In this document: positions 20,201-63,107 of the stretch, one piece after another | How the letters are laid out: the number at the start of each line of letters is the position of its first letter | How positions within the stretch are numbered: the first letter of the stretch is position 1 | Notes under the pieces: model-generated | Told to the model about the DNA's origin: nothing | What the model saw: only the letters and a program-made list of their open reading frames with translations | Database searches by the model: none | Source of the DNA: Diphasiastrum complanatum | Lineage: Eukaryota; Streptophyta; Lycopodiopsida; Lycopodiales; Lycopodiaceae | Length of the DNA: 64,000 nt | Direction of reading: 5' to 3' | Assembly (NCBI GenBank): GCA_029204225.1 | Contig: CM055108.1 | Location: forward strand, 19,067,779-19,131,778 | Position numbers and translations under genes: made by a program

Positions 20201-20314
20201 CAAACAAGGAACCTAAAAAGCTTGGAAAGACTTTTCCTACCAGGGAAAATGTTTGGTGTTCTATTTGTATAGGAAATCACACAGTGAACGAGTGTCCTCA
20301 ATTGAAAAAAAGAA

Positions 20315-25118: not shown

Positions 25119-25470
25119 GAGATACAAGAGACAATCATTAATCTTGTGTACAATAAAAAAATAGCAAGTTTTGATCCTAAAAGCTAGTATTGGAAGGCCT
25201 ACTAGAAATCAAATGTAGGAGTGGAAATTTGTGGATCAAATTAGATCAGGGTCAAAATCCGTACTGTTCACACATGTGGACAAGTCTGTACCAAAAAATA
25301 ATTCCCATTTTTCATTAGATCCATAAAAAATCATAGTGATAGAACTTGATGAGTATATGGTGACACTACTATGTTTTTTTGATGACACTAATATGCTCCA
25401 TCTTAAGAATTGACTCCCTCTTGAATATCTATCTTTCCTCTAAGATCCTATAAATGATAAATGGAAAAAT

Positions 25471-25863
25471 TTCATAGTTGATATAGAGAATAGTGTCCAA
25501 ATTGAATGCTTCATTATTTTGTACATCAATTTAGCATAACATGATAGAAAAATTACATGCATTAATAAATAGAATCATAATGAATGGATTCCTCCATGTA
25601 TAAACCTATGGTATCTTCGTAAAACAGAAAAAGCCATGTGTCCAACCAATCAAATGTAACTTGCTTTTTAGATGACACAGATTTCATAGTTGATATAGAG
25701 AATAGTGTCCAAATTGGATGCTTCACTATTTTGTACATCAATTTAGCATAACATGACGGAAAAACTACATGCATTAATAAATAGAATCATAATGAATGGA
25801 TTCCTCCATGCATAAACCTATGGTATCTCTGTAAAACAAAAGCAACCATGTGTCCAACCAATC
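25471..25863. repeat. 212-bp tandem duplication
   Basis: Copy 1 is 25471-25682. Copy 2 (25683-about 25863) repeats its first 180 bp with about ten differences (shared TTGATATAGAGAATAGTGTC). Confidence 0.85.
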
Positions 25864-29663: not shown

Positions 29664-30932
29664 ATGGCTTCGATTCTGAAAACCATGAACAGAAGGTTCA
29701 ACTTTCTTATTCATTTCATTCTTTGGGGCCCCATTACCTTCGACCTTTCGTGTGCCACAAGCTCAGATCTTGGAGTACTGGGCTCCCCCAAAGTGGCCAC
29801 TGTGCCTCAACAAATGTAATGAGTAGAAAACACAAAGCTGCAGATGTTGCCCATGCGAAATTTTCTTTAGAGAGCGCAAACAACAGAATTAGTTTGGAGG
29901 CAACACTAGGCTCAGGTCAGGATTTTGTAGATTTCTACATGGGAACGCTAGCGAGGAACTAGTGATCTAATTTGGATTCAATGCTACCCTTGTAGTAGAT
30001 GTTATTCGCAATCCAATCCTATCTACTATTCCAATAATTCGTCTTCTTTCTCGTCAGTTTCTTACTCTGTCAAACAATGCTTTCTTGTTCCAGCACCACC
30101 ACACGATTCTTGCGGTTCCAGGTTTCCAACAACACACGTACGTTTACAATGATGGATCTTCTAGTAGTGGCTAGCATCTGAGACGGTCACAATGATATCT
30201 AGCTCTGGAGAGAGTTTGAAGATCAGCAACATTACGTTTGGATGCGGCATAAGCAATGAAGGTCAGACTTTGCACGGCGTCCTTGGTCTTGGGCAGGGGC
30301 GTGTCTCTTTTGCATCTCAGTTAGGACATCTCTACGGAAGCATTTTTTTCTATCGTCTTGTGGATTATCTGAAAGCCACTACAGATAGAAGTCTGCTTGT
30401 GTTTGGAGATGCCAAGATTGAGCAATCTTTGAGGAATGCTATCCCATACACTCCACTTTTGAAGAATTGTATTACTATGTGGGAATAAAGCATGTTCGTT
30501 TGAATGGACGAGTTCTGCCTATCCCTTCAAAATTATGGCAGATTGACTCTGTCAGCTATGGTGGCACCATTGTTGATTCTGGCATGACACTAACATACTT
30601 CAGAAAAGCGGCTTATTCATTTATTGTAGCTGCATTTAAAAGAGCCATAACTGTGCCTAGAATAGCACCCATTCAAGGCCTTGATCTCTGTTTCAACTTT
30701 TCTGCTGCTTCGAGTATAAACATTCCTCAATTCTCAATCCTTTTGGAAGGAGATGTCCTCTTTCAGCCCCCACCAGAGAATTACCTTGTTGACACAGCTC
30801 TGGGTGTGAAATGCATTGCAATGCAAGGAGTTGATTCAACTCTTGGATCAAACACAATAGCTGGAAACTTGCTTCAGCAGAATTTCCATGTAGAGTATGA
30901 CAGATTAAGAGCGACGATTGGGGTTTCTGTTG
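29664..30932 (+). pseudogene. Pepsin-family (A1) aspartic protease pseudogene
   Basis: The first frame begins MASILKTMNRRFNFLIHFIL, with a signal-peptide-like hydrophobic core. Later frames give SLEATLGSGQDFVDFYMGT, then SDLIWIQCYPCSRCY, LASETVTMISS, NITFGCGISNEG, YYVGIKHVRLNG, GGTIVDSGMTLTYF and AGNLLQQNFHVEYDRLRATI. This is the order of plant nepenthesin/CND41-like secreted proteases. The first catalytic D-T-G-S segment, expected between MGT and SDLIW, is missing with a frameshift and stops. The second motif is DSGM instead of DSGT. At least four frameshifts follow. At the extreme C-terminus it runs into the gypsy relic on the opposite strand. The gene is dead; no working enzyme is possible. 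Confidence 0.85.
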
Positions 30933-32676
30933 ACAAACTGCTCCTCATCATCGTAGCCATGATCAACCACTCCATACTTCTCACGCATTATTTTCCAATG
31001 CATTGTGATAAACTTCAAAAGTAGATGAAGCTAGTTCTATACACAAATTTACCAAATACACCATCACAAACTTTTCCAAATATGGATGAAGAATATGTTT
31101 ATCATCTGCTTGAAAGTGGCTGGCGCGTTCGTGAGTCCAAAAGGTAACACTAAAAACCCATAATGGCCGTACCTGGATTGAAATCCAGTCTTAGGAATGT
31201 CTTCATTCCTAATCCTTATCTAATGGTATCCTGATCGCAGATCAAACTTGGAGAAATCATAGCTTCATTCAAACGCTCCATAACATCATCCATCCTAGGT
31301 AAGGGATATATGTTTTTGATGGTTGAATCATTTAACTTTACACACACGTGTGCTGCCATCCTTTTTATTAACTAAAAGGATTGGTGCTCCCCAAGGAGAC
31401 TTACTAGGCCGAATATGGCCCATCCTAAGAAGTTCTTGTAACTACTTAGAAATTTCATCCTCTTCCTTGATGCTAACCCTATATGGAAAAAGAGATACAT
31501 GTTGGCTTCCAAGAAGCAACTCTATCTGATAGTCAACACTCCTTTGGGGAGGTAGGCCATTAGGGAGTTTTTTAGGAAAAACATCGCTATACTCTTGTCT
31601 AAATTTGTTAAACATTCTTTCTTCAGGTGAATTAACACTAAGTCTTAAGAGATTATTTAAAGGCACTTTCAAAGGCAAATGCGATAAATCAATATTTAGA
31701 CTCTGGACTACATGGTCATCCACATAAACTTCATCTTATAAAAAACAAAGATAAACTTCATCACTAGAGTCTTTCAAATATTCAACTTCTTCTAAATCAG
31801 AAACCATAGGATCAAAAGGCTTATTTACATTGCCTTAGCTCAATGAGCCCTTATGCAAAATGAAAATACTATGTGTAACATAATCCTTTCTTAAAGACTA
31901 ATTTTTAGAGTAAAACTACTCTTTTCCTAAGATTATGTCTATGCTATCCAAATTCATTATATGAAAATCCAGTGGTTCAACATAATTTTAAATCTTAAGC
32001 GGCAGTTGAGGAACAAGTTGGTCCCAAGCTTGCCGATCTTCTTCCGATGCCATTTTCACCACATACAAGTGATTACTTGACATGGTCGCCGCCTTGAGCT
32101 TCTGCACCAGTTTAGCATTTATAAAGTTGTGTGTGGAACCATCATAAAAAAGAACAGTCACAGCTTGGCATCCTATGATTCCATTCATACGAATGAGGTC
32201 GTGGGGGCCAACAACAGTTGTATTAAAACAACAATTCTCACAACTAGTGCCATTCTTAAAGGATAAATCAACAAAGAAAATATTAGAATCATTTGGCGCT
32301 TTGAAAGATTTAGTTTGCCCGGCAAATTTCTTTTGCTTTTGCTTCGGGCAATCTTTTGAAAGATGCCCCTTCTCCATACATGAGAAGCACAAGCCGTCGG
32401 TTCTCGCCTTGTGATAGTTTGCATGATCCAACTTGACGCGCTTTTTTTCGCCTTGGGAACTGGTGTTCGTCTTGTCTTTGCTTTGCTTTTTTTTTAAAAA
32501 AAAAATCTTTCTGATCAGCCTTGGGAAAACATTTCTCCTTGCGGGAGGCAAAATGGATGTCATCGAAGATTTTCGCAAAGCGAATTGCATCCTTGATAGT
32601 CTGCCTTGGTTACTCCGCACTTCTTGAAATGTCTATGGAAGCCCCAAGATAAAATATCGGTGGCTCTGATACCAAA
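30933..32676 (-). pseudogene. Ty3/gypsy element, 5' half (gag end, protease, RT start)
   Basis: Minus strand, from the PBS at 32662-32674 (GGTATCAGAGCC). It reads a partial gag with zinc knuckle CFSCMEKGHLSKDC, then protease VLFYDGSTHNFINAKLVQKL, then an RT entry with FPKKLPNGLPPQRSVDYQIE. After frameshifts come [24 protein letters not shown] and [16 protein letters not shown] stops before the catalytic Y-x-DD box, and downstream (30.95-31.02 kb) reads FITMHWKIMREKYG. It lacks most of gag, RNase H and integrase. It runs into the last codons of the aspartic protease pseudogene. Confidence 0.8.
32662..32674 (-). promoter_or_regulatory. Primer-binding site, gypsy element at 30.9-32.7 kb
   Basis: Minus-strand TGGTATCAGAGCC, a perfect initiator-Met-type site, 2 bp from the LTR boundary. 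Confidence 0.85.
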
Positions 32677-34009: not shown

Positions 34010-34167
34010 CACTACAACAAGACACGCGATTTCAAGTGCTTTTTTTGAGCATTTTTTTTAAAGATAGAATTTAAAATGAGTCGTGGGGAGCTGTGGAAGG
34101 CTCGAGCATCGGGTCCGACATTTGGCCTCGGTATAAGCCTTGCAAATTTTAACATGGTTTTCAAAGA

Positions 34168-34251
34168 TTTATAGGGAGGTTTATATGGAGGATTATAGAT
34201 AGGGTTATACAAAGAGTTATAGAGAGCGTTATAGAGAGGGTTATATAGAGG
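34168..34251. repeat. Seven-copy 12-bp minisatellite near the CACTA end
   Basis: Seven consecutive 12-bp units, consensus GTTATAGAGAGG. The minus-strand peptide is (LYNP)n. Confidence 0.9.
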
Positions 34252-34662
34252 GAAAAGTAGGCCAAGAGGCATTCTAGAATACTCTATTCACTGAGGTTAA
34301 TACCGTGACTAATGAAAAAAAGGCCCCACAGTATAAACCATTGAATGTAATGGATCTCACTTTTCAAAATTGTTGTCTATCAACATACTGAATTCCAATT
34401 TCTATCAAAACTAGCTGCCATATCCACAATTGAATAAAGAAATTTATGTAGCACAAAAATATCATGACCACAATTTGTATACTCACAAGCATTGACATCT
34501 TGCTTGATATCAACTAGTCATATAATAAAGTGCAATTGCATTGATGAGCAATCTAATTAATATTACAATGAGTTGAAACATATCGTACTGTCTCACTTAT
34601 TCATTTGCTGATTCCTCATTATCATCATACGACAAATCCGCCAAACCAAATGAGTCTATCTA

Positions 34663-35386: not shown

Positions 35387-36053
35387 TGTCAAATTTCAGA
35401 GTTTAAGGACTGAAATTGATCTACAAATGATCACAAAGAGTGATTGGTAGCTTGGGATCTTGATCTATATCAAGACTAGCTTCCAAATCTAGCTTCTACT
35501 TGACAATCGTTGTGATTCCAAGCAAGAACAATAGAAAATGATGATCCACGGCTTCACACGTGTGAATTACAGCTACTACACGGCCTGATAACAGAGAAAT
35601 AGTTTACTTATCATTTACTAAGCATTCATTCACAAAGAAAGTGCTTAAGAGAGTCAAAACACAAAGATTGCTTCACAAACCAAGATTTCTCATCATTAGC
35701 TCAATAATGGATCCATCATGGATCAAGTACAAAATCACAATACTCTCTCTCTAAGCTGCATCCAGCACGTGTGGGACAGCTCATTGTACTCATCCATATC
35801 CACTTTGGATAATATCTATCAAGTTTGCCACATCATCCATTGGTGGTTTGTGTTGACCTTCTAGATTCCTACAATCTAGGACCTAACTCCTATAATTTAG
35901 GAAATGTCATATTAGACTCAAATGAAAGCTAATCAAAATGGATTTGAATATTACAAGTGTCATTTCACACATGTGGACAGGTCCTCACACATGTGGATCC
36001 ACATAGATGTCAAAATACATCAAAAACCATGTGAAAATTGCTTATTTCTAATA
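35387..36053 (-). mobile_element. 3' LTR of the nested copia element
   Basis: A 667-bp LTR. In plus orientation it starts TGTCAAATTTCAG. In minus orientation it begins TATTAGAAATAAGC (TGTT decayed to TATT) after a purine stretch AAAATTGAGGAC. Its first 115 bp repeats at 39086-39201 with a handful of differences. Confidence 0.8.
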
Positions 36054-36119
36054 GTCCTCAATTTTTACATGATAAAACTATAGTACATCTATCTACAACT
36101 CCTAAGACTGATCTTAACT

Positions 36120-38533
36120 TGATAAATGAAGCCTTCGGCAAGGCTTTAGTGAGTAGATCAGCAAGGCAATCTGAAGAAGACACATGATGTAGCTTGATCT
36201 CCTTTGCTTGAACCTTTTCCCTCACAAAATGGTGAGCAAACTCTATGTGCTTGCTCCTTGCATGGAATGTGGGATTGGTTGGCTTGATTGGTTGTCACAA
36301 AATATTATTGGCTGCTCCTCAGCCTCCATGACTTGCAACTCCACCAAAAGCCTCTTCAACCATAGGATCTCCTTTGTTGTGGATGTTAGTGCCTTGTATT
36401 CCGATTCGGTTGAAGATAGAGAAATAGTATCTTGCTTTTTGGAAAGCCAAGACACTATGTCATTGCAAAAGAAGGTAACAAAAGCACTTGTGGGCCTCCT
36501 ATCCACCTTATCAATTGCAAAATCAGCATCCGAATATGCCCTTAAGGCAAGATTAGATCCATTATATAAAATGCCAAAGTTCTTGGTGGCCGAGACACCC
36601 TTTTTGCATTTTTCCAATGACAAACCAATGGATTTTGCATAGATTGGCTTAGTTTGCCTACACTATAACTTAGATCAGGTCTAGTTATAGTAAGATAGAT
36701 CAAGGAGCCTACAAGTCTCCTATATAGTGTGATGTCCTCAAAGGATGCTTCATCATCACTATTGGAAACTTTTACATTTTGGTCCATAGGAGTTTCTACT
36801 CCTTTACAATCTTTCATTTCAAACTTTTCCAAGATAGAAGAAGCATATTTGTATAGAACTCAAATCCTTGCCTCTTGAAACTTCTATTCCTAATATGAAA
36901 TGAAGATTACCAAGATCCATCATCTTAAACTCCTTAAACAATGCTACTTTCACTTCTTGTATACCATCAAGATCATTTCCACTAAGGATAATGTCATCGA
37001 CATACAAAATGAGAATGATGATTTTACCATCATTAAATCTTAAGTACAAAGAAGGATCATTAGCACTTACAACAAACTTAATAGAGTTCAAGAAAGTATT
37101 CAACCTAGAGTACCAAGCTCTAGGTGCTTGCTTAAGCCCATAAAGGCTTTTTAGCAAACAAACACGCTTTTCCTTCTTTGATGAAGCCCTCGGGTTCCTC
37201 ATGAAAATCTCCTCTTCCAAATATCCATTGAGAAAAGCATTAGTCACATCAAGTTGAAATAGAGGCCAATTGAAAGTAGTTGCAAGAGAAATAATCAACC
37301 TTATGGAAACTAGCTTAGCAACAGGAGCAAAAGTTTCATCAAAATCTACTCCCTTGGTTTGCAAGAACCCCTTTGCCACTAGCCTTGTCTTGTGTTTGTT
37401 GATGCTCCCATCTTGATTGTACTTCAATCTATAGATCCATTTGCACTCAAGTGGCTTTCTTCCTTGAGGAAGATCCACAAGCTTCCATGTATGATTCTCC
37501 ATAAGAGCATCATACTCCTTTTGCATGGCATCCCTCCATTCTTGTGACTCCATAGCTTCTTCAAAGCAACTTGGCTCATCAAACATAGAAGTTAGAAAAG
37601 TGTAAGAGGTAAGTGAATGTAGATCTTCCCTTTGTTCACCTTTGTCAACATAGGTGAGCCTTGAGAGCTTGGCCTTCCTTCTTGTAGATCTCCTTGGAGT
37701 CCTCGGATCTTGAGATGGATCTTCAAGATCTTGATCACATGTAGGCTCCTCCTCAAACCTTACAAGATCCTTGACATAAGATGTATTAGAAGCTTTCTCA
37801 TTCAACTTGTAGTAGTTAGTTACCTTCATCAAAAGTAACATCTCTACTCATTGAAATTTTCTTAGTGATTGGATTATAGACTCTATATCCTTTGCTATTT
37901 TCAGCATAACCAACAAAGATCCCTTTAATAGAAGTAGGATCATCCTTTTTTCTTGTAACTAATGCTTGAAAAACATAGCAAGTAGATCCAAAAATTCTTA
38001 GATCTTTAAAATTTGGCTTCTTACAAAATAGAGCCTCATAAGATGTTATGCCTCCAATGGGCTTACATGGCAATCTATTACACAAATAAGTTGCACAAAT
38101 AATAGCCTCTCCCCAAAAGGACTTAGGTAGAGATGCATCTAATCTCAAAGCCTTAGCACACTCACAAAGTGTTCTATTCATCCTCTCGGCTATACCATTT
38201 TGTTGAGGACTATAAGTACATGTAAGTTCTCTCTTAATGCCATTGGATTTACAAAACTCTATCATCTTGGTGGCTTCTTTCCACCTTTGGAGCTTGATGG
38301 TTGATCATCACTCTTGGTCTCTTTGTGTTGGATCTTCTTCTTTGACTTTGCCTTTTCTTGCTTGAAAAGTTGGCCTTCTCATCACCATCATGCAACTTCA
38401 AGGATCCAATCCTTTGGTCTCTAATGCTTTGAAGAACTTTGTTTCTAATCATAAGCACTCTAGAGGTATTTTTGGATTCATAAATTTCTTTAAGGTAGTT
38501 CCATGCCTCCTTGGCCGAGGTACAAGATGCCAC
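36120..38533 (-). pseudogene. Nested copia gag-pol, internally deleted
   Basis: Minus strand. Gag remnant 38533-38249 (SAKEAWNYLKEIYES) is joined by deletion to integrase at 38265-37816 (YSPQQNGIAERMNRT, LPCKPIGGITSYEALF). RT follows at 37841-36819 with KWIYRLKYNQDGSINKHK, ETFAPVAKLVSIR and catalytic LILYVDDIILSG. RNase H at 36832-36243 includes DADFAIDKVDRRPTSAF, SLSSTESEYKAL and FCDNQSS. The protease and the N-terminal part of integrase are missing. Small frame breaks at 36.83 and 37.83 kb indicate decay. RT itself is long and almost intact, so this is one of the younger copies in the window. Confidence 0.9.
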
Positions 38534-39072
38534 TTCCTATAGAAGTTCATTACTAACATTCATTTTCAAGCAATGTAATGCTAGTCTAGCTCTCTTTTTG
38601 TACCTCACTTGACCTTGCCCTCCATGAAGTTCTTCTTCCTCACCTATGACAAGATCAAACATATCTTGGAGCACAAGTAGTGACTCCATTCTTACTTTCC
38701 AAGTTGAATAGTTATTAGAATTTAGCCTTTCACTAGCCTCAAGAAGACTCCAATTGAACCCACTCTATCTAGTAACACCATTTACTCATCAAATCTATGA
38801 AGGAAACAATGGTTTTTCATAAGCACATCACTAGTTTCACTCTACACAACTTGTTTGAAGCTCAAATATTGAAAAAACACAAAGTTTTGGTGAAAATACA
38901 ACTCCAGCAGCCTCTCACAGTGTGAGAAGTACATCTGAACTTTCCACACTAATCTGAACCTCAACATTACAAGTAAACTATTAGAAAAGGTTGCCCTCCT
39001 TCAAAATGAATCTAGCACCAATGCTTTCACCAAAATGAAGACTTTTGGATCACCAACTAACCTCTTTGACTT

Positions 39073-39085
39073 GGCTCTAATACCA
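39073..39085 (-). promoter_or_regulatory. Primer-binding site of the nested copia element
   Basis: Minus-strand TGGTATTAGAGCC abuts the LTR end (TGACA). It differs by one base from the initiator-Met complement. Confidence 0.8.
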
Positions 39086-39201
39086 TGTCAAATTTTAGAG
39101 TTTAAGGATTGAAATTGATCTACAAATGATCACAAAGAGTGATTGGTAAACGTGGGATCTTGATCTATATCAAGATTAGCTTCCAAATCTAGCTTCTACT
39201 T
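39086..39201 (-). mobile_element. Truncated 5' LTR of the nested copia element
   Basis: Only the 116 bp next to the PBS survive. The rest was deleted, and CACTA sequence resumes at 39202. Confidence 0.8.
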
Positions 39202-41400
39202 ATGGATTGCAACATCTTATGCCAATCATGCGATTTCAATCCACTTAATTTACCATCTTTGGTAAATGATTTGCATAAAGAATGTGCATAGTCTGTTGGA
39301 GTTCTCATTTGTTTTATGATGTGTTTAACATGTGAGAGTTGCTCGTTTGTAAGAATCCATGGCACGCTAGGTAGAATCTCATCTCCACCTTCAGTGTATT
39401 GAATCCAATAGAATTTCACGTCGGCTGCTTGTAGATCTTCACGAGCTGCGGAGTTGTCTTTTATGCCAATGATGTGGTTCCATAGCGATTCACCAAAGTT
39501 TTTGAATATGTGCATAGGTTCCAATAGATGATTTATCAATAAATTTCTCCAATAGGATAATCTATGAAAAATAGACAACTGTTTCATACCATCAATGGAT
39601 TCATTCCATGACGAATTAACATCATGATGTATAAGCCATTCACCATGCCATTCCGCTACTCCCATGCGTGAGGGTGTGGTGTAGTTAAAAGATTATTTTC
39701 TTGCCCCCCAAAAAATTGCCTATTTTACCTTTGAAAATGATGATCAAGCGGCAAGTATTTGCGTTGATTTTTGTAGACCACTTTTTTCAACATATTTGTG
39801 CTATGCTGACCTTCCAAAAGTGGTTCACAAATGTAACATGCATTGTAACCCGATGTGGTTAAACCTACATAGTTCATAAACCAATGTGAGATAAGCTTAG
39901 TGAAATGTACTCAAACGCTAAAACCTAAAATGGATTCGTATGATTTTATACATAGATGATCATTCACTTAAACTGGGGTAGTCATGCATCGTCCACATTA
40001 GAATTCCACGAACAATGAAGCTTCTTTGTTGTATAGGTCTCGAGATGTCGTAAGCATAAATACCATTCCAAAAAATGCACAATTCATCAACCAAAGGTGA
40101 AAGTTATACATCCATGTTCTTGGCCTTGTACTTTCCTGGAATTAATAGAAATAATAACAAGTGGCCCGTTTTTATACTCAACCATATAGGTATAGTATAA
40201 TTAACAAGGACAACTGGCTATGTGGACCAAGTTGACGCAACGCTAAAAAGATTTACGTCATCCATAGCAAGGCCAAATCATAAATTACGAGGTTCATTTT
40301 TTAACTCGGGCCATTGGTCTTCAATATGTTTTCATGCAAGTGAGTCATTTGGTACTCGCATCACATTACCCATAGATTGATTTTTGACATGCCAATCCAT
40401 TAGTTGTGCCAATGATTTACATCAAAATAAACGTTGCAATCGTGGGATAATTTAAAAATGTCATAACACTTTTCGTGGCACTTTATTCCCATGTACGTCA
40501 TCTTGATAAAGTGAAGCGTACACGTTGGACATTGAAGCTATTCTGAATGCTCACCTCTATATAAAACATGGCCTTCTGGACATGCATATATTGTGTCATA
40601 ATCCATCCCAAGCACATTCTTTTCATGTTTTAGGTATTAAGTTTTCTTTTGGAAGTATTCTTTGCAACAATTAAAAAAAATAGCAATGTGAGTTGTTAAA
40701 ACTTAGAAAAAAAACTCAACTTAATGTAAATACACTATTAAGTACAAAAGTTGTGTTATGTGTTACGTACCCGAATAATGATGTGACACTACGGTTTCCA
40801 TTTGTATGTTACGTGAAGGTTTAGAATAAGAATTGACGTAGCTAGTCTCAAAATGGATGTTCCTGGATACAAAGGAGTGTCTGCCTCCTTGCGCAACAAA
40901 ATCTTGTCTTCATCCATCTCAAATTGTTTGTGATCTCCATTTTCATTAGAAGATGCATGCAAAGCATCATTCTCGTTTGTTTTCAAAGTAAGATTCAAAC
41001 ATATTGTGCATTGCTCCATCGTGTTGCACCTCAGCGTCATTATCATTAGAATCAAGTTGATTACTTTTTTTTCAAATTGTATATTCCTCTTGAATTTGTT
41101 TTGTTTTTTGTTCTCTAATGTCTATCAAAACTTGATGTTGATTATAATTAAACATAGATGGGTCAATTTTGTGGAATGGCATTTGATTTATTGGCTACAC
41201 ACATTAAACAAATTCAATAAATAACGTATATAGATTGACAAATATTATAATAAAAAAAGTCATTTAAAGCTAACAAACCTGAACGTCTTCCAAATTTGAT
41301 GGTTGACCCTCATCTTTTCTTCCACACTTCAACAAATGATTTTCAACAATGCATCTCTTAGGCATCTTTTGCCCATCACACTTGATGCATGTGCACCATA
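39202..41400 (-). pseudogene. CACTA transposase (TNP2) N-terminal and core part
   Basis: The minus strand starts near 41400 with RCIVENHLLKCG. Then comes KEADTPLYPGTSILRLATSI near 40.85-40.93 kb, the TNP2 N-terminal signature. Around 40.45-40.62 kb it reads LGMDYDTIYACPEGHVLYRG, CPTCTLHF and FKLSHDCNVYF, the next conserved TNP2 block. At 39665-39189 it reads LEPMHIFKNFGESLWNHI, SAAREDLQAADV and SGLKSHDWHKML, the end of the TNP2 core into DUF4218. Multiple stops separate these blocks. In domain order it continues into 35386-34663 beyond the nested copia. Assignment to En/Spm-type transposase is firm. Confidence 0.8.
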
Positions 41401-41856
41401 TTTTATCTTGAAATAATTTTTTTGTGAGAAACAAAAATCAAGTACATGTCACTTTAGCACAATATTCGAGGTCATGTTTAACTTATAGTAACAAAGTCTT
41501 TATGAACAAAAAGTTATACATATTTACTATTTACTATGTTGACTTGAGTAGTGTCTTCATTGCTGGACTGATTTGAATGTAATTCATCTCCTTTGTGATA
41601 AACTGCATATATGCACAAGTACAAAACACAAATAACATAGAATTTGTCAATTTGAAAATATGTTCATTTTTATCTTTCGATATTTAGATAACATGATTCT
41701 TATATGCAAATTATTGTATGATTCTCATGTTTTGATTTTTAGATAGTATGATTCTTATAAGTGGCATTAAAGTTTTGTAGTTGATTTTCTTTTCTACTTC
41801 ATATCCATATATTAGGGTTTATTGTAATGTATTGTATGTTTATGAATGTAGTAATC

Positions 41857-43609
41857 ATGTCGGGGTCCGACAGTGGTGAGAGCTCGAGACATTATGTTTC
41901 AAATTTTTATGCATCACTAACTCCCAAGCAAAAAGCACAATTGCACAGTTTGATGCTTAGCCAAGTCGAGGGTGGTCCCTCACAAGTGGTCGTGGCTCTC
42001 GCCCCTATCGAAGAGTCATCCACCAATCCCTATTACGATGTGGATCCTCAAGGGAACATAATCGCCAACCATAAAGGGAAGGTGGTTATGGATCGACAAT
42101 ATTCGTTATGCCAACGAAAGGCGGGCTTGCAAGTAAGCATGGTAAGTGAATCTAAACTACTCTTATAGTTTGTCTTTGATTTCATATGATTTTCTTTTTT
42201 AACATGCGTTATGACTAGTTGCTCCTATCTAGCTCTAAACTAAGTCCAACTAAAATTGAATGGATAGTTGGCGAACTATGGACGTCTACCAACTAAGGAA
42301 GAGTACGACTTTGCCTTTAGAGAATCATACGAGGCATTAGTCGAGAAATTGAAGAGCGAGGGTCATCCTCCACGTGTAAGTTTCTTTGAGACATTTAAAA
42401 TTTGTATTCTTTGTATATTATTGTTGTAAAATGTGTACGTGTTCACTCTTAACCATTAGTATGATCAAGTAATAAATAGTATTGTGTCTTGTATGTTTGT
42501 TTTCATGTAGAGCGGATGTCATGACGTGGATCGTCCTCCCACCCCTATCAAAAAGTCATCCATGAATCCCTATTACAACGTGGATGCTCAAGGGTACATA
42601 ATTGTCAACCGTAAAGGGAGGGTGGTTATTGACCAATTTTATTCATTATGCCAACTAAGCATGGGCTTGCGAGCAAGCATGGTAAGTGAATCTAAACTAA
42701 TCTTATAGCTTGTCTTTGATTTCATATGATTTCTTTTTAAACATACATTATGACTAGCTGCTCCAACCTAGCCCTAAACTAAGCCCAACTAAAATTGAAT
42801 GGGTAGTTGGCAAACTATGGACGTCTACCAACTAAGGAAGAGTACGACTTTGCCGTTAAAGAATCATGCGAGGCATTAGTCAATAAATTGAAGAGCGGGG
42901 GTCATACTCCACATGTGAGTTTCTTTGAAACATTTAAATTTTGTATTCTTCGTATATTATTGTTGTAAAATGCATACGTGTTCGCTCTTAACCATTAGTA
43001 TGATCAAGCATTAAATACTAATATATTTTGCTTGTTTTCATGCAGAGTGGATGTCACGATGTGGATAGTCCTCCCGCCCCTGTCGAAGAGTCATCCACGA
43101 ATCCCTATTACTACTTGGATCCTCAAGGGAACATAATCGCCAACCTTAAAGGGAGGGTGGTTATGGACCGACTACATTCTTTATGCCAACAAAAGGTGGC
43201 GGTCTTGCAAGCAAGCATGGTAAGTGAATCTAAACTACTCTTTGTCTTTGATTACATATGATTTTCTTTTTTAAAATGCATTATGACTAGCTGTTCCAAT
43301 CTAGCCCTAAACTAAGTCCAACTAAAATTGAATGGATAGTTGGCGGATTATGGACGTCTACCAACTAAGGAAGAGTCCATATTTGCCTTTAGGAAATCAT
43401 ACAAGGCATTAGTCGATAAATTGAAGAGCGAGGGTCATCCTCCACGTGTAAGTTTCTTTGAAACATTTAAATTTTGTATTCTTCGTATATTATTGTTATA
43501 AAACGTGTATGTGTTCACTCTTAATCATTAGTATGATCAAGCATTAAATACTAATGTGTCTTGTTTGCTTGTTTTCATGCAGAGCGGATGTCACGACGAC
43601 GATGAGTAA
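41857..43609 (+). CDS. CACTA accessory protein with tandemly repeated two-exon module
   Basis: Seven exons join in frame: 41857-42141, 42268-42375, 42511-42681, 42807-42914, 43046-43219, 43340-43447 and 43583-43609 (326 aa), every intron phase 0 and GT-AG. The first encodes MSGSDSGESS and LTPKQKAQLHSL. Then a module of exon A (STNPYYDVDPQGNI, GRVVMDRLHSLCQ) and exon B (YGRLPTKEEYDFAF, ALVEKLKSEGHPP, exactly 36 codons) occurs three times, period 540 and 535 bp, followed by SGCHDDDE and stop. Exon B is related to the penultimate exon of the CACTA gene at 18.4 kb, so this is probably the second (TNP1-type) CACTA gene, head-to-head with TNP2. In-frame ATGs from 41827 could extend it by 10 codons. 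I do not recognise a named domain. Confidence 0.6.
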
Positions 43610-44079
43610 ATTAGGTTTTTAATATAAATTTTTAGTTCATCTATCGTAAGTTAGAGAGACTACAAAAGTAGGAGTTTTGTGATACATTAATTGACATTTT
43701 CAATATATATATTATTGCAATTGATCACAATATTGTTATTGGTTCTATATGTTGAAATTTGAAATATGAGCAATGTCGGATTCCAAGATGTGCAATGTCT
43801 TAACTAACTAGGAATTTTGAAACTTTGTGCAATGTAGTATTTTCAAAAAGTAATACAATAAGATATTGTAATTGATAATGCGAATTAAGTAATATAAGTA
43901 TAGAAAGCACCTCATGCTTGTTGCTTGTCACTTGATCCAAATGTCGAATGCAATCCAAAGATATTGTCTCAAAAGCAATCCAAGACTAGCGTCTCTCCAA
44001 GAACACGACTCAAAGAATAAACCGATAAAAATGCGCATGCTATTTTTTACACATTATTTATTTATTTATTTACCCAATC

Positions 44080-44320
44080 AAGGTCGTCAGATTCCGACAT
44101 AAAAACCCATCGGGCATACGTAAGATTATTCGTCGACACCCGTCGGATGTCATCAGACACGGTTCTATTAACAAATGTTGAAATTCGACATGTTTTTAGA
44201 TGTCGGATTGCAATATTCATTTATACATCAGACACCCTCGTTAGACATTTTTTGAGCACGTTCGGTAAGAATAGACGTTAGAATTCGATATCATTTTGGA
44301 CGTCGGTATTGCGACATCAT
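44080..44320. repeat. Subterminal repeats of the CACTA element
   Basis: About eight variants of GTCGGATTGCGACAT in both orientations (for example CAGATTCCGACAT, GATGTCGGATTGC, CGGTATTGCGACAT). Confidence 0.6.
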
Positions 44321-45221: not shown

Positions 45222-48200
45222 TTAGGCTTGTTGAACTGGCGGAACAGGCTGCCAAAACTTGCGTAATCGGTTGCGATTCAGCGGAGTATAAAATCGTTTT
45301 CCATCCAAGTGGTCAAGAATTACTGCACCATAGTTCAGAATTTTCTTCACTTTATATAAGCCTTCACCGGTAAACTTCAATTATTCCTTGATCAACTTGG
45401 TTTTGTACATCAGTGCAAGATCTCTTGCTTTCAGATCCTTTTTGTGCAATTGACGATCGTGCCATGCCTTTCGGTGGGCTTTCTCTACTACAAACGCATG
45501 CACTATCATCAATCGTGTTTCACATAATTTGTGCAACGCTTCATGACGTAGTTGTAAAAACTTATCATCATTTAACAGTTCTGTTGCCGCTATGTGTAAA
45601 GATGGGATTAAAAATTCAATCGACATGACAACATCTTGACCATAAACCAGTTGAAAGGGTGTTTTATTTGTACTATTTTTGTAAGCGATTCTAAATGCCC
45701 ATAATGTTGTATACAGTTTATGTTCTCAATCAGACCAACTCGCTTCAATTGTCTTTGTCATAATAGTGTAGAGAATCTAATTGGAATACTCAGCTTGGCC
45801 ATTCCCTCTAGGATAGTAAGGAGTATTAAATCTGTGTATAATAAAAAATCTTCCAATAAACACTTTATTGTTTAATTAACAAATTGTGTACCCCGGTTAA
45901 ATGCAATATTGGTGTTGAAGTTAATGCTTTTTTTAGTTTTTCAAAGGCTTCTAATGCCTCTACTGTCCAAATAGGAACAATAGTCAGTTTTTATATAGGT
46001 CTTGCTAAATCCACAAAGAAGATAATAAAAATTTGATAGTAGTGACCCATAAACACATAAACTCCACGAATTGTTGTTGGTGGTGGCAATTCCACAATAA
46101 TCTTGATTTTAGAATAATCTGTGGCAATACCATGTCTCGATATCACATGCCCAAGCACAACTCCATGGGAACTCATATCTGGCATTTTTCTAGATTTAGA
46201 GAAATTTGATATTTGCGACATCTTTCAAGTACTTTCTCCCAAATGGTCTGTATCTATACTATGGACTCCTAGGTCATCCAAGTAAATTTCAAGGAATTTA
46301 TGTAGATAATCTTTAAAAGCAAATCGCATCACTCTTTGGAACAAACTTGGTGCATTACAGAGTCCAAATGACATTACTTTGTAAGCATAGGTGCCCCATT
46401 CTGTTGCAAAAGTGGTTTTATGGCGATCGGCAGGTGCAATCTTAACCTGGTTGTAACCACTAAATCCATCCAGGAAACTATACGCTTATGCTCCAGCAAG
46501 GTGATCCAAAATGCTTTCAGTAAAAGGTATCGAAAAGTGATCCTTTCTCGTCACTTTGTTCAAAGCCTTGAGATTCATACAAATTCTCAATTTTTTATTA
46601 TTCTTAGGAACAATGAAAATCTATGAGATCCATTCGGTATGGTCGATCTCATAAATGAAATCGGCATCAAACAATCTCTGAAGTTCTTTCTTTATCAGGT
46701 CCGCAACATTAGGATTACAATGATAGAACTTTGTAACCTTTGGAACTGCATCAGGTACTAAAGGTATGGTATGTTCAATAACTGACGTTGGAATACCCTC
46801 CAGATCTTGATAAGTCCATGCTAAGAAATCTTGATACTTAATAAGTAACATGCGGAGTGCTTGATACTATTCAGGATTAAGTTGTGATCCGACTTGTACA
46901 ATATTTTGTGGTTCTCCGGGTTTGGCAAGATTCATTGGTTGTGTCCTAGCTGGGCCATCATAAACATCTTTCGAGTCTGGCATGTGTTCTTCGGATTCAC
47001 GATGTGCGTAACATGATAACCACATCATCCAATGTATAACGTTTAAAATGTTCGGGCATATCATGTTGGACTACATCTGCTTGTTCCTTTTCAAAATGAC
47101 TTGTCTTGAATCTTCGCTTAGCCTTCTTAGCAAGAATTGATCGTGGAGGTGAGGACTTCCGAGACGATGATGTCTTGCTAGAATTCTGACTTCTAGAATT
47201 ATCCTCGACTTTTCCTTTTCCTTTATCCAATAAGGGTGGCACATTCATTGAATCCATATTTTGAGGAGGATTGTCCCATTTCATGACCATATTATAGTGT
47301 TGCTTGGCTTGTTTCTTCGTCGTTGATCCTATGATCCTATCTTTCTTCAATATAACTGCTTTAGGCAGTTTTATTGTTGGTTCATCAGGAACATTACGCA
47401 CTTCAAATCTGGTCAGATCCATATGATTTAGAATATGCTCATCCATAAGTTCTGCATTGTCATCATAAGTCAAGGCATGACTCACATGTATGAGGTCATC
47501 TTCAATCGGATCTGGTATAGGTTCCGTTGATATCCAAGCTACATTCAGCACATTCAATGGAAAAGTGATCGGTGTATCCAAGATTCGATCCAATAAGAAA
47601 ATCTTGCTCAAATCTAACTGATTATTTTTTTGACACAATATATCTTGTTGTACAATCAATCGTTGCAAGAGCTTCATTCTAGTTGACAATATCCGTTTGA
47701 GAATCGTAATGAGCTCCCAAATTTTTCTCTAGTCGATCACAAGTATGATCCATTGTTGATGAATCATCATCCTCTTTTTGAACCACTGGTTTGATAGTCC
47801 AAGTTGCAGGATCAACTTTGACTACATGTTCACAATTTTCAAAACTGATTTTCCCGGTACCCCAATAGGACTCGGTAGACATTTGGTGCTTCTGGTAAGT
47901 CCATTACTATGAAAGTAATGACGAACTGTACTTCCGCAATCCTGACAGGTATATCTTCAATTATTCCTCACGGATGAACTATCGTTTGATCAGCTAGCTT
48001 AATGGCAAAAGTCACATGCTTGATCTTTGTAAGGCCCGATTTTGCACATAGCTTTGTAGAAATCAGGTTAACTCCTGAACCACCATCTATCACAGCTGCT
48101 TTTTTAGGAAATTGTCTATGCCGTATCAATAGGGTGATATTTTTTTGTTCACTTTCCCAAGCTACTCTGACATGGAGTACGTCATTGGATTTTTCAAATC

Positions 48201-49008
48201 CAGTACAAAAAAGTGGCTCTTGATGGACTTCTGATTCTACTTGAGCTAACTTTTGCGCTAAGACTTCTTTTGCTTTTGGAACCAACTTTAAGAACTTTCC
48301 CAATAAAATATTGATCTTACTAGATTAAATATTCATGAGTAGTTCTGTTTGCGGTGCTTTCGGTTCAGTCATCTTGAAGGGTTCTTCTTGATGATGCAAC
48401 TGATCATTCATATCTGTACGTGAATTCCTTGGTGGCTACAATGGTGAAGAACGAACTTTGGTTGTTGCTTTAGCAGCTTCAAACTTCTCTTCTTCTTGCA
48501 GATGTCTAATCCACTGCCTCATATCCTGATATCTTCTTTTTTCTATATGAAGATTTGGATAGACTCCAAATGCTATTGATTTATCTGTTAATGGTATAGA
48601 ATCAGGTGGTACTGGATCCGCTACTGGTTCTTTCTGCTTCAGTGCTCTGGTGACCACCATCAAGGGTATACTTGATTTATTTTGAGCTACTGGTCTTTGG
48701 TTGAGTTATGAAATTTATAGGAGCTATAGCTAGTGGTGGCTTCGGTCTTGCTGGACAATCTTTATAGCAATGCCCATAACCACAGTCACGACAGAATTGT
48801 ACAGTTTTTTTTTATTTGGACATTCTGCAACTCTGTGATTTTCTCCACATGCAAAGCATCCAAGTGGTGCTCTAGTCCAATTTCTAGATGCTTGTTGTTG
48901 CGCGGCAACATAAACAGCATACTGTTCTGAAGATCCACCTTCTTGATCATCACCATAGTTCCATTCCTCGGCACTTCTGTACGGTTCTAGTTCCATCAAA
49001 TTGGCAGG
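45222..49008 (-). mobile_element. Gypsy (Tat-like) element, longest copy in the window
   Basis: Minus strand. Gag (48999-48730) has two intact knuckles of the form C-x2-C-x3-H-x4-C (CFACGENHRVAEC; CRDCGYGHCYKDC in the next frame). Protease at 48303-47968 has AAVIDGGSGVNLIS. A spacer protein spans 47882-46867 (ERFE-like blocks PEHFKRYTLDDVVIM). RT starts at 46851 (FLAWTYQDLEGIP, LQRLFDADFIYEID) and RT end lies at 46221-45991 (VVLGHVISRHGIATDYSKIK). An integrase region at 45626-45381 (HIAATELLNDDKFLQ) is followed by a pol C-terminus GEGLYKVKKILNYGAV before the stop near 45222. Many frameshifts. The core RT and catalytic integrase are largely lost. Structural parallels to 20.3-23.1 kb are close throughout. 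Confidence 0.85.
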
Positions 49009-49429
49009 AGGAAATCTTTGCCGAACTCACAAATGATACATTACTATATTTAGAATCCTCAAGAAACTCGACGAAGGATCTAGCAAAGAATCAAAAGTAA
49101 TACTGGTATTTTTGCAAAAAAGAAATTTTTTTGACAAAAATATGACAATATAACAACTGATCTTTTGGGAAACCTTTGCCCAACTTACTAATTATAAGAA
49201 ATAGTAAGTGGGGTTGACACAGACTCTAGCAAAATGTTAGGTGAAGGTTCTTCTTAGAGAACTAATATGTTTACAAAAAGTTATAAATTTTTCACAAAAG
49301 ACTACCAACAACTAGATGAATAGTCACTTTGACCTTCTATATTTGGTATTATTCTTCGCCGACCTGGCAGTGGATAGACCTGAACACCTATGCATAGTGA
49401 ATCTGACAAAGCTTCTTTTTTTTTTATTT
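49009..49429. other. AT-rich flank with CTTCGCC-like motifs
   Basis: No gene. Motif variants of CTTTGCCCAACTT and CTTCGCCGAC occur near 49015, 49070, 49171, 49231 and 49350, matching those on the other flank of the gypsy copy. Confidence 0.45.
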
Positions 49430-50959
49430 TTAGAGTTTTTGGTGGTTTTTCGATGTTTTTTGATAGTTTTTCTGATGTGTTTGCAAATTTGTTGGGAATG
49501 AATCTTCACCCTTCAATCTGAAGGGATACTTGATCGCAATGTGCTTTGTTTTGGAATTGAACATGGGATCTTTCATCAGGTGTACTGCAGAGGTATTGTC
49601 CATCTGCAAGACCAGAGGCTCGTTTCTTGTTTCGCCTAATTCGTCCAAGAACTGCCTTAGCCAGATTATCTCGTTGGCCATCTTAGCTACTGCAATGTAC
49701 TCTGCTTCGCAGGATGACTGGGCTACAATGGTTTGCTTCTTGCTGACCCAGAGAACTGCTGCTCCTGATGTAATGGTGCATCCTCCTGAGACGCTTTTAC
49801 AGTCGTCCTTGAGAGATGCCCAACTAACATCGTTGTAGGAAAGTATCTTGAAACCTGCATCACGACAATAGCACAAGCCATAATCCCTCATTAATTGAAG
49901 ATATTGCAAAATGCGTTTTGCAATCTTCCAATGTGTCGAGCCTGGATTCGTGCATAATTGGCTCATCTTGAACACTGCATAAGCAATATCAGGACGTGTG
50001 TTGTCGGCAAGATACATCAGTGATCCTATCAGCTTTCTGTAAGGTGTTAGCTGCATTTGTTCTCTCTCTTCCTCAATTCTCGGACAGTCATCATTTGTTA
50101 GTACCGTCCGTGCAAGCATTGGAGTATTCGCTCCTTCGCAGTTCAGCATCCCAAAGTCCTCTCGGATCTTCTGGGTGTATCTGGACTGGTGAAGGTATAA
50201 CTTATCTCCCTCGTAGTCCCCCTCAATTTGTAAGCCTAGGTAACACCTGGATTCTCCCAGATCCATGATCTCGAAATGTTTCAAGATGTCTGTCTTCACT
50301 TTAGCAATTACCTACTCACTACTACAAAGTATTAGAGTGTTGTCCACATATACAGCCACAATGATGATTTGCCGATCTGTAACTCTGACATATACATTGG
50401 AATCAGCCAACAGAGGCTTGAATCCTAATAATTTCAAGGCTTGATCTTTTTTCTTGTACCATTGTCGGGCTGATTGTTTCAAACCGTAGATGCTTCTAGT
50501 CAGGAAGTGAATTCGAGACATATCCTGGGGGTTGATCCATATAGACTTCATCATCTAGTTTGCCATGTCATCTACAATGTGGATCCTGATGTCATAAGCT
50601 GCTGCATATGCAAATAACAGACGTAGGGACGAATGTTTGATGACATGAGAAAAGTTTTCAGAGTAGTCAATACCATATCTCTAAGAGAAACCTTTCACCA
50701 CCAGTCTTGCCTTGTATTTCGTCACATTTCCATCTGGTTTGTATTTGAACTTGAAGACCCATTTGCATTTGACAGTCTTGCACTTATGTGGTAATGGCTC
50801 TAGTGTCCATACCTGGTTTTTACTCATGGACTCCATCTCTTCGTTCATGGCTTGGATCCATTTGTCCTCCTCTGGACTTTCAATCGCCTCCTCAAAAGTC
50901 TGTGGTTCACCACTGAATCCGCAGAACTCTTCTGATATGGAAGTTGAGCTACATGGCAC
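49430..50959 (-). pseudogene. Copia RT and RNase H (element 49.4-53.9 kb)
   Basis: Minus strand. The RT N part at 50959-50681 reads VWTLEPLPHKCKTVKCKWVF and VTKYKARLVVKGFS. Then comes IYGLKQSARQWYKKKDQALK with a catalytic box VAVYVDNTLIL, where the second catalytic Asp is replaced (D-N instead of D-D). RNase H at 50299-49430 follows with MDLGESRCYLGLQIEG, NTRPDIAYAVFKMSQL, VAQSSCEAEYIAVAKM and LQMDNTSAVHL, ending KTKHIAIKYPF. A short deletion and stop near 50560 remove the 'AFLHGELDEE' segment that the inverted relative at 62.1 kb retains. RNase H is nearly intact; RT is damaged. Confidence 0.9.
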
Positions 50960-51087
50960 ATATCTTGCTGGTGCTCTTCGTGGTCTTGCCGACCTCCTGG
51001 GAGATCTTCTTGGGAAAGCAATGCCTTTGCCCTTGTCTGCTCTGCTGGTCCGGAACCATCTTGGTTTATAGGAACTGTAGCAGTAGG

Positions 51088-52069
51088 CTATCTCTCGAAC
51101 CTTTCTTCTTCAGATTCGTCGCTCAAATGGGAGACGACTTCAAAATCTTTGTTTTCGTATTCGTCCTTTGCTCCCTTTGTCATTCGCGGCAGGTCATAGT
51201 ACTGTCTCTCCAGAACTTCGTAGCTGATAAGATCGTCGTTGGCCATTGTCCTGCTCTCATCAAATCTGACATCTCTCACTATTTTCACAGTGTTCGTGTC
51301 TGGCATGTAGATTCTGTAGTATGACGAATTATTGTCATAACCTACCAGAAATCCCTGCTCGGCTAACTCGTCAAGCTTCTTTCGAAGCTTATCAGGAATA
51401 TGTGCATAGCCAAAGATTCTAATGTGAGACAGGTTGGGCTTTCTACCCCACCATAGTTCATGTGGTGTCGTGTGAGGAACACCAACTTGCCTGTTATGTT
51501 CTGGATGTATGCGACGGTAGCTACTGCTTCAGCCCACAGTACCCTTGGAGCTTTTGAGTAGGCCATCATGCATCTGGCTGCTTTCATCAGAGTCCTGTTC
51601 TTTTCTTCTGCAACACCATTGTGCTGCGGTGTGTAGGCTGCAGTCCTTCTGTGAATGATGCCACGATCATTGCAGAAGTCAGTGAAGCGATTCGAGATGT
51701 ATTCGCCACCTCGGTCTATTCTGATCTACTTCACTTTGCTGTATGTACATCTTTCAGTCCAATTTACATATTCTGTGTAACATCAGATTTATTCTGAGTA
51801 AAATACACTCTGACAAATTTGCTATAGTCATCAATGAAGGTTATATAATATTTTGAACCTCCTACTGAGATCACATTGAATGGTCCGCAGATGTCAGAAT
51901 GCACTAGCTCCAGAATCTTGGTCGTTCTACAGAAGTCTTTGATGAATGGATTGCGTGACATCTTGCCCTTCAAACATGCATCACAGGTGGTCGAACTGGT
52001 TGCATTCGAGATGCTGACCCCTGTTATCACTCCATGATGGCTTGTTTGATAAAGTGCCATTGAGTTCAT
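51088..52069 (-). pseudogene. Copia integrase (element 49.4-53.9 kb)
   Basis: Minus strand. The HHCC region (MNSMALYQTSHHG, CDACLKGKM) is followed by ELVHSDICGPFNVISVGGSK and FIDDYSKFVRVYF, then after frameshifts ARCMMAYSKAPRVLWAEAVA at 51587-51363, and the integrase C-terminal region at 51306-51088. A stop at about 51770 interrupts the DDE core. The homologous stretch at 60.63-61.56 kb on the plus strand matches closely. Confidence 0.9.
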
Positions 52070-52081
52070 GTGTCATAGTCT

Positions 52082-53083
52082 TCAGTGCCACAGAGTGTCT
52101 GACGAGTCATCATGAGTCTGATGCATTTGATCTACAGGTAGGTGTACCTTCAGATGATATAGGCTTTTTTTTCTTCTTCCTTGAGCGATCAAAGTACTGG
52201 TACTAGCATCAATCACGTTGCGTGCTTCGTCAGAAAACGTCACACGCATCCCTGCATCTGCTAATCTTGCTACAGATAGCAAGTCTTGTTGTAGAGTAGG
52301 AACAAACAAAACGTCTTCGAGTCGTCTGTCTCTGTCGTTGGTGTTGAGCCACAATATCATTCACTTGATGCTTAGATCCATCTCCAAGAACTATGAATCT
52401 TAAAGGATCTGCACTTCTGAAATCAGACATTATTCGTCTTGATGTCACGAAGTGTGAGGTGGATCCTGAGTCTAGGGTCACCTCATGTGTATCAAATGTT
52501 GATGTTGCACACATGTCTTCACAGATATAAGCGGTCGAACAGTTTCTGTTCGTTCTTTCTTCGCCCATCTTTGAGCTCTCGGACTCTTCGACATAGGATG
52601 AATTGTTGTTGTTCTCCTGTCTGTTCTGCACTGATTTGTTCCTCGGGTTCTAGCAACAATTCACGGCTGCATGACCCTTTTTGTGGCAATGGATACACTC
52701 AATCTTGGGATTGAGCCAGCAGGTATCTATTGTATGCCCGTCTCTTCTGCATCTCATGCAAGTCTTCTTGTCTGCACCTTGCTGCTTCGACCTCCCTTTG
52801 GTCTTCCAGTTGCCTTTGCTGGTCCCCTCTGGTCACAATCCTGCCTCTGATTCGACTCCCTCTTAGGCTTAAATTGTTTCTTGGATTTTTCTTTGTTGTC
52901 ATAGAGGGCCTGGTCAGAACCGTCTTTGTGATCAAGATGTTCTCTGGCCTCGACTTCCTCTCGATTCTCGACAGTCGCCTTTTCGAGGTTCATGGTAGGA
53001 TCTTTCACGAGCAGGGTTCTTGTCGTCTGGAATGATCTGGGTAAGGCTCTCAATAGGTAAGTGAGCTGCTTCTTATTTGACAC
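52082..53083 (-). pseudogene. Copia gag with two zinc knuckles, and protease
   Basis: The minus strand reads a partial gag (KKQLTYLLRALPRSFQTTR), a basic linker, then two zinc knuckles: CMRCRRDGHTIDTC and CIHCHKKGHAAVNC, which ends at a stop near 52650. The protease follows with EVTLDSGSTSHFVTSRRI, the D-S-G-S-T catalytic motif, then VLGDGSKHQV. A shift to another frame continues VARLADAGMRVTFSDEA. Gag's N-terminal part is missing. Double knuckles are less common than single ones in copia. The family repeats at 60.6 kb. Confidence 0.85.
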
Positions 53084-60136: not shown

Positions 60137-60600
60137 GATTTTATAAGCTTCGTAGGGCACGCGGTTTTGTCTGCTATTGTCATGTGCTCTACCGCATTAT
60201 TGACATGTATACATGATACACTTAATCTGATACTGTTCTTTGTTCTGTGTTCATATCTATGTTAATATTGCTATGCTTATCATTCATTCTGTCTGATCTT
60301 TCTAGTTATTCTTTCTGGTAATAGACAACTAACAACTGGTCTTGTCTTTCGCGAATCATTCGCGACTAATTATCAGTCGAGCACCGTCTAGCTCTTCGCG
60401 AATCATTCACGATGAATAGTTTGTCTTACTATTCACGACAAACCATTCTTCTGGAGCTTCATTCATTTATTAAAGCTTGGCTATGTAATCAAAAACACCT
60501 ATGATTTCCATCACTACCATTTTGTTCATTCTGATAGGCGTAGTCATGCTTACGGAGAGAGTCGTATAGCTCGTTCCGCTACGCACAAACATTTTTAGAC
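60137..60600. other. No gene; palindrome-rich spacer
   Basis: Contains near-perfect palindromes TCGCGAATCATTCGCGA and related TTCGCGAATCATTCACGA within 60350-60450, and a mirror of ACTATTCACGACAAACC. No coding sequence recognised. Confidence 0.45.
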
Positions 60601-62480: not shown

Positions 62481-63107
62481 AGCCAGGTGTGATTAGTTGT
62501 AGATGTATAATCACTCTAATCTTAGGTTTACATAGAGAGACCATACTTATGGGATAATACTTGACATATATCAGAACAAGATACACAGAGTGTAACCAAG
62601 AGAAAAGACACTGAAGAAGTCTGATGCTAGTAAGCAATCAAGGCAAACACAGACAGAAGCTCCGTCTATGTGTAGAAGATAACTTTGTCTAGGATCAGAA
62701 GATCCAATTGTCCACTAGTGAAGCGAGACTACTACTCATGAGAGAACCGTGCTTCTCTCACACCAACGCACTGCGTGGACTCGCATGCAGTGTCCTAAAG
62801 AAATCAGAGAAAATCAATATAGATTATTTTCTGGTTGTGTCTGATCTTGGATGTTGAATGCTTATGCTATTTATTTCATATGTCTGAGTTTTCTTGTTTC
62901 CTTTGAATTTCGCACCTTGGTTGAAATAAAGTCAAATGCTGTATTAATTTTATGAACGTAGATAAGTAGTAACTGACTACTCTCTGGAGAATTGTAGGAG
63001 TTTTTCAACTGGCAGTGCCCAGCAAACGCATTTGAACTCCATCTGAATCTTGAAAGAGAGTCGCGACTGTTTTGTGAATTTTTCTCCCCCTAGATTCATT
63101 ACATGTA
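62481..63107. other. No gene recognised
   Basis: AT-rich spacer between the copia fragments, with an AATAAA-like signal near 62930. It could contain an LTR, but no partner or terminus was verified. Confidence 0.4.

Follow-up and report, generated by a model that had tools for sequence, protein, structure and literature searches.

The predicted accessory gene at 41857..43609 of the window (the whole 64,000-nucleotide stretch of Diphasiastrum complanatum DNA analyzed here) is probably a rearranged gene of a CACTA (En/Spm) element that underwent an in-frame deletion, then an in-frame triplication, and is now a relaxed relic. An in-frame deletion of 330 nt first took the core out of exon 1. The last exon would next have recombined with the middle of that exon, leaving a tandem copy whose exonic junction is in frame, and one further round would have brought the number of units to three. 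Unequal exchange would be the copying mechanism, and the tripled product is most likely without function today.

The repeat array and its CACTA element

The gene lies on the plus strand and comprises seven predicted exons with phase 0 throughout; its splicing is predicted from the DNA sequence. Exon 1 (41857-42141, 285 nt) contains the start codon, a unique 5' part and the A segment of unit 1, and has homologues in the other copies of the family, while exon 2 (42268-42375, 108 nt) is the B segment of unit 1. Unit 2 consists of exon 3 (42511-42681, 171 nt), in which the start of the last exon (SGCHD) is fused to the exon-1 A segment at a junction around 42526-42535, and of its own B in exon 4 (42807-42914, 108 nt). 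Exon 5 (43046-43219, 174 nt) is the fusion exon of unit 3 and carries one extra codon, exon 6 (43340-43447, 108 nt) is the third B, and exon 7 (43583-43609, 27 nt) is the original terminal exon, which encodes SGCHDDDE followed by the stop and has a homologous terminal exon in other copies. The joined frame is open over 981 nt (326 aa plus stop), and the six introns are all GT-AG, 120–135 bp long and 26–33% GC. Other starts than the ATG at 41857 could be chosen, as the frame remains open upstream of it and has another in-frame ATG at 41827; the stretch upstream of 41857 is conserved in a cousin subfamily (L048-L051, described below).

The A-intron-B-intron unit occurs three times, with a repeat spacing of 540/535 and 539/533 bp. 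These exon coordinates agree with the earlier note, which had described a 7-exon gene with an open frame, phase-0 boundaries, three B exons of 108 nt and periods of 540 and 535 bp. Its claim of a tandem duplication at the DNA level, introns included, is likewise confirmed by BLAST of the window against itself, in which 41986-43059 pairs with 42526-43596 (86.3%) and 41996-42526 with 43071-43598 (89.5%). The phase-0 regularity is the product of two ancestral introns that were copied and does not represent six independent facts. Over 246 aligned positions of A+B, the coding differences number 35 between units 1 and 2, 25 between units 1 and 3 and 40 between units 2 and 3; the introns differ less than A+B, at 27/256, 21/255 and 19/250 positions respectively. 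A Pfam scan of the repeat protein gave nothing above the cut-off (best E 4e-4), and the matches under it, all weak, were taken as chance, perhaps summed over the repeats. No relative was found by a PDB sequence search or by a search of viral contigs with exon 1, Rfam gave zero matches in the window, and the structure predicted for exon 1 together with the other A exons has a mean pLDDT of 43 and no usable fold.

The surrounding element has a left terminal inverted repeat, CACTACAACAAGACACGCGA (34010..34029, plus strand), that agrees at 15/20 positions with the right end of another copy (L016), read in reverse complement as CACTACAACACCCGCCGCGA. Up to two mismatches being allowed, CACTACAAGAAA has 15 matches in the window, the left end among them, which is no more than chance would give. 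The four ATGTCGGA/TCCGACAT sites that the window contains all fall inside the element (34114, 43773, 44093 and 44200), and seven copies of a 12-bp unit, TTATAGAGAGGG, with 80% matches, are located at 34169-34252, just inside its left end. A Copia-type LTR retrotransposon (35387..39201, minus strand) is nested in the TNP2 side; its repeats of about 115 bp (35387-35501 and 39086-39201) are 94.8% alike, and one piece of it (38252-38536) has a gag-polypeptide match below the cut-off (E 1.1e-4). The TNP2 transposase gene (39192..41437, minus strand) stands head-to-head with the accessory gene and is broken into separate pieces, with minus-strand matches to Transposase_21 at 39963-40103 (E 6.4e-8, above the cut-off) and 39728-39910 (E 4e-4, below it) and to Transpos_assoc at 41273-41437 (E 6.6e-5, below it). 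The earlier note, which had described a CACTA accessory gene with a dead TNP2 partner on the opposite strand, is upheld in that TNP2 is broken and stands head-to-head with the accessory gene. The spacer between the divergent genes (41438..41856) has a homologous spacer in other copies and may serve as a shared promoter region.

On the right side, the subterminal region (43773..44318) contains ATGTCGGA-type repeats, GTCGGATTCCGAC-like repeats being present at the right ends of other copies, and 44318 is the furthest point to which other copies remain homologous. The element is truncated at about this position, and a search of the window for sequence similar to the left end did not find its right terminal inverted repeat; a right end of the form ...TGTAGTG lies further on in 8/27 other copies, that of L016 corresponding to CACTACAACACCCGCCGCGA in reverse complement and the others being similar. 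Because it is without its right end, this copy of the element is unlikely to move, even with help.

Several other features were seen in the window. The segments 20521-22763 and 46823-49012 form an inverted pair, 86–88% alike, and the open reading frame at 20306-21205 is gag-like by eye, with CCHC-type cysteines. A second inverted pair (50243-52100 and 60597-62490, 83% alike) has frames nearby that look Copia-like by eye. At 25469-25863 a 212-bp unit occurs in about two tandem copies (93% matches), and a 200-codon open frame at 30422-31024 resembles by eye the C-terminal portion of an aspartyl protease from plants.

Parent gene, core deletion and breakpoints

A search of the 1.74-Gb host assembly with the gene gave 1392 first-look candidates, 40 of which were scored, namely the window and 39 other loci of about 6 kb each; 12 of these were less than 3% apart from another and were dropped, leaving 27 non-redundant copies. 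Exactly one exon B hit was obtained in 39/39 of the other scored loci, so that the survey of module copy number across genomic copies, suggested in the earlier note, did not show the array at any of these loci. Some accessory copies at different places (L026/L035, L030/L031/L033/L034, L012/L013, L009/L010 and others) are only 0–1.6% apart over the intron-B block and are either recent copies or assembly duplicates.

In the parent gene, which stands head-to-head with TNP2, there are three exons (exon 1 of about 205 codons, exon B of 36 codons and a last exon of 8 codons). Upstream of the accessory gene, TNP2 pieces were seen on the other strand at 18/39 loci (14/27 of the non-redundant ones); at the remaining loci none was found within about 3 kb on that side, and one locus (L025) also has TNP2 pieces downstream, on the accessory gene's own strand. 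Among the non-redundant copies, the intron-1 donor is GT in 25/27, its acceptor AG in 25/27 and the intron-2 donor GT in 25/27, while the intron-2 acceptor is AG in 19/27 with 8 not covered; all four sites are standard in 16/27, which supports the exon boundaries independently. A protein query of 98 residues covering nearly all of the piece lost from the window gene matched 150/150 scored places (among 2812 first-look candidates) with E < 1e-40, about 66 of the 150 being free of stops inside the match by hand count. Two of these core matches (G000:C11:32608355-32608648 and G000:C4494:16965-17258) fall in listed frames of 3533 and 1856 aa despite internal stops.

A cousin subfamily of four loci (L048-L051) has a 284-codon open frame with exon 1, the same architecture and the same donor position, and an open exon B was recognized by pattern in two of the four; a fifth relative, with a different exon-1 start, was left out of the comparison. 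Between the window family and these four cousins, dN/dS is 0.05–0.09 for A, 0.09 and 0.28 for B, 0.38–0.44 for the core and 0.26–0.28 for the 3' part of exon 1, whereas values among the four cousins are higher and noisy (0.27–1.13 for the 3' part of exon 1). With dN/dS between subfamilies this low, the parent was a real gene under constraint, which was strongest in A and B. These results also bear on the reading of the gene model as a chance chain of open segments with no gene behind it. The absence of any Pfam match above the cut-off would fit such a chain, which is nevertheless very improbable in view of the conservation of exon 1, B and the splice sites in copies and cousins and of dN/dS values well below 1 between subfamilies. 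A Pfam scan of two of the cousin relatives gave no match. A resemblance of the core to Transposase_24 was not confirmed: Pfam scans of the window protein, the family consensus and the cousin proteins list neither Transposase_24 (PF03004) nor Transposase_23. From the position of its gene, the parent protein is probably the element's TNPA-like partner and a putative DNA-binding protein.

The earlier note missed a 330-nt in-frame deletion of the core that preceded the duplication. In other copies with hits on both sides, extra sequence lies between the equivalents of window positions 42114 and 42116, and in a 15-copy consensus the missing piece measures 330 nt, that is 110 codons of the conserved core (0 mod 3). 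The exon-1 part of 468 nt containing this piece is at least 80% present in 20/27 non-redundant copies. The scar (42114..42116, plus strand) has its counterpart in units 2 and 3, and the deletion is placed before the duplication because all three units are without the same 330-nt segment. A 28-nt pattern of the unit-1 scar has one match in the 1.74-Gb genome at up to three mismatches, the unit-1 scar itself, a count that leaves uniqueness unproved given the poor recall of the pattern, which at three mismatches did not recover the scars of the other two units, diverged as these are.

Exons 3 and 5 both open with SGCHDVD, similar to the SGCHDDDE-stop of the terminal exon, after which comes sequence from the 3' part of exon 1. 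The duplicated unit thus has one end within exon 1 and the other within the last exon, both breakpoints being exonic; in our reading of the alignment, about 10 nucleotides at the junction fit neither parent simply. This excludes a symmetric-phase exon duplication with breakpoints in introns of equal phase and goes against the earlier suggestion that symmetric intron phase had preserved the frame. The reading frame survived because the exonic fusion junction is in frame, and intron phase was irrelevant to it because whole introns were copied along. A 27-nt pattern of the fusion junction, fitted to both window copies, has two matches in the genome, both in the window, although the recall of such patterns is limited, as copies diverged by about 10% often exceed three mismatches and old relatives may be missed.

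Age of the units and selection on the frame

In the block running from the exon tail through intron 1, B and intron 2, the units are 8.7–11.5% apart and the family copies a median of 10.2% apart; the units lie 5–8% from the family consensus. A tree of 30 sequences (the 27 copies and the three units) places the units in one clade with a support of 92/87 (not starred) and a stem of 0.006, and of 200 bootstrap trees 90% recover one origin for the three units, which is thus moderately supported. The tip of unit 1 measures 0.055, that of unit 2 0.078 and that of unit 3 0.045, against 0.022–0.069 for the other copies. Substitution rates in plants are 7e-9 to 1.3e-8 per site per year, at which the unit tips correspond roughly to 3.5–11 million years. 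With distances close to the family median and tips of this length, the duplication is not the recent event that the earlier note had considered.

Tandem repeats are a known assembly hazard, and on this general ground the array might be suspected of being an assembly artefact, which is scarcely credible for units that differ by 8.7–11.5%, with two distinct copies of the junction and a single 49.6-Mb contig spanning the array. It is also unlikely that ectopic recombination or gene conversion with dispersed copies supplied part of the array, so that not all units would have arisen in situ. The units are about as far from each other as from other copies, unit 3 is nearer to L018/L019 than to unit 1, and the fork joining units 1 and 3 has an SH-aLRT of only 13; these points are outweighed by the absence of the same segment from all three units and by the clade support and bootstrap frequency given above.

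Pairwise dN/dS between units over A+B is 0.77–1.47 by NG86 and 1.11–2.47 by maximum likelihood. When changes were placed against the family consensus, with seven two-unit or multistate sites set aside, those common to all units were 2 N:4 S, those private to unit 1 were 3 N:3 S and those private to units 2 and 3 were 24 N:3 S, a slight excess of N over the neutral expectation of 70% (P 0.034). The contrast between unit 1 and units 2+3 has a Fisher P of 0.058, and unit 1 alone is not clearly neutral. Other copies, pooled over ungapped segments, have 160 N:107 S, fewer N than neutral, which fits a family that was once under constraint. Amino-acid constraint was present before the duplication and is not seen after it, at least in units 2 and 3. 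The selection suggested in the earlier note, taken as purifying selection on the repeated peptide after duplication, is not supported for these units, and the combination that the same note had named as contrary to its reading (dN/dS near 1 between units, with frame disruptions in other copies) is in substance what was found.

The exons also vary more than the introns (variable sites 30/138 in A and 48/246 in A+B against 33/250 in introns, P 0.03 and 0.07 respectively). This was not taken as positive selection, since the exons are richer in CpG (5.4 and 6.5 CpG per 100 nt versus 0.0 and 3.1 in the introns) and, in the other copies, G in CpG (17.8%) and C (13%) change much more often than T (5.0%) or A (1.9%).

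The frame itself provides a real but modest hint that, for some of the time since it arose, it was kept open. Among the close copies, an open exon B is present in 22/27 and an open 3' part of exon 1 in 0/20; the 5' part of exon 1 is strictly open in 1/15, or in 3/15 if compensating gaps are allowed according to our reading. Pooled close copies contain 76 frame lesions in 11,896 nt (6.39 per kb), from which 6.27 lesions would be expected in 981 nt and none is observed; the Poisson P(0) of 0.0019 overstates the case, because lesions shared by descent (the same stop in several copies) and gaps split by the alignment inflate the rate. From substitutions alone, the probability of remaining open is 0.063 by simulation and 0.071 by a second calculation. 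None of the three changes in length (the deletion, the fusion junction and the single extra codon) shifts the frame, for which chance would give 1/27 if they are independent. The open frame, which sets the gene apart from the close copies examined, leaves some room for selection on the frame.

An improbable alternative is that the tripled A+B protein was selected as a multivalent binder, for instance as a repressor acting on the subterminal repeats or on TNP2, and not in support of transposition. The frame, the splice sites and the coding indels are all intact, A and B are at once the most constrained parts of the parent protein and the parts that were multiplied, and the slight N excess in units 2 and 3 could also result from diversification. 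Against this, units 2 and 3 show no purifying selection, the conserved core and the right end of the element are both lost, and the structure predicted for exon 1 with the other A exons has no usable fold (mean pLDDT 43). The junction patterns, whose recall is limited, matched nowhere but here, so that there is no sign of amplification. Less probable still is that a helper was reshaped into a multivalent regulator by discarding the 110-residue core and tripling A and B, the frame being kept while the sequence diversified; such a trivalent regulator might act as a dominant-negative or silencing-blocking binder of the subterminal repeats. A rearranged accessory gene that has since relaxed into a relic is retained as the preferred reading.

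Relation to known systems and significance

In domain-repeat genes, tandem exon duplication can take place between introns of symmetric phase. The window gene shares with them repeated exon units, phase-0 introns and an open frame; unlike in them, its breakpoints are exonic and phase was not what saved the frame. Among plant CACTA (En/Spm) elements, the gene recalls the TNPA/TNP1-type second gene, also a multi-exon gene beside TNP2, although it is transcribed divergently from TNP2, has no Transposase_24/Transposase_23 row and binds DNA only putatively. TNPA-type DNA-binding partners beside TNP2 are reported to be highly divergent between CACTA elements (PMC2613891, PMC8195511). Internal deletion appears in part of the same literature as a general pattern of CACTA derivatives (PMC2613891), and the dSpm/Inhibitor-type derivatives are comparable in this respect; here, by contrast, the deletion is small and in frame and was followed by an in-frame tandem triplication of the remainder. 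Chenopodium CACTA elements are reported to have captured satellite DNA arrays near their 3' end (PMC8978399) and thus also hold tandem repeats inside the element, whereas the repeats of the window are the element's own coding exons. No report of such an exon array was found in the literature surveyed, available to us in part, which is not proof of absence.

The locus represents a clean natural case of a deletion and two tandem duplications with exonic breakpoints that left one frame running through seven exons, for which dozens of array-less relatives in the same genome serve as controls. A common inference is thereby corrected, in that phase-0 introns flanking repeated exons need not mean that phase saved the frame. 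If the tripled protein were expressed, the locus would offer a test of whether transposon partner proteins can become multivalent. The parent family, which stands head-to-head with TNP2 and has no Pfam match, merits description in its own right.
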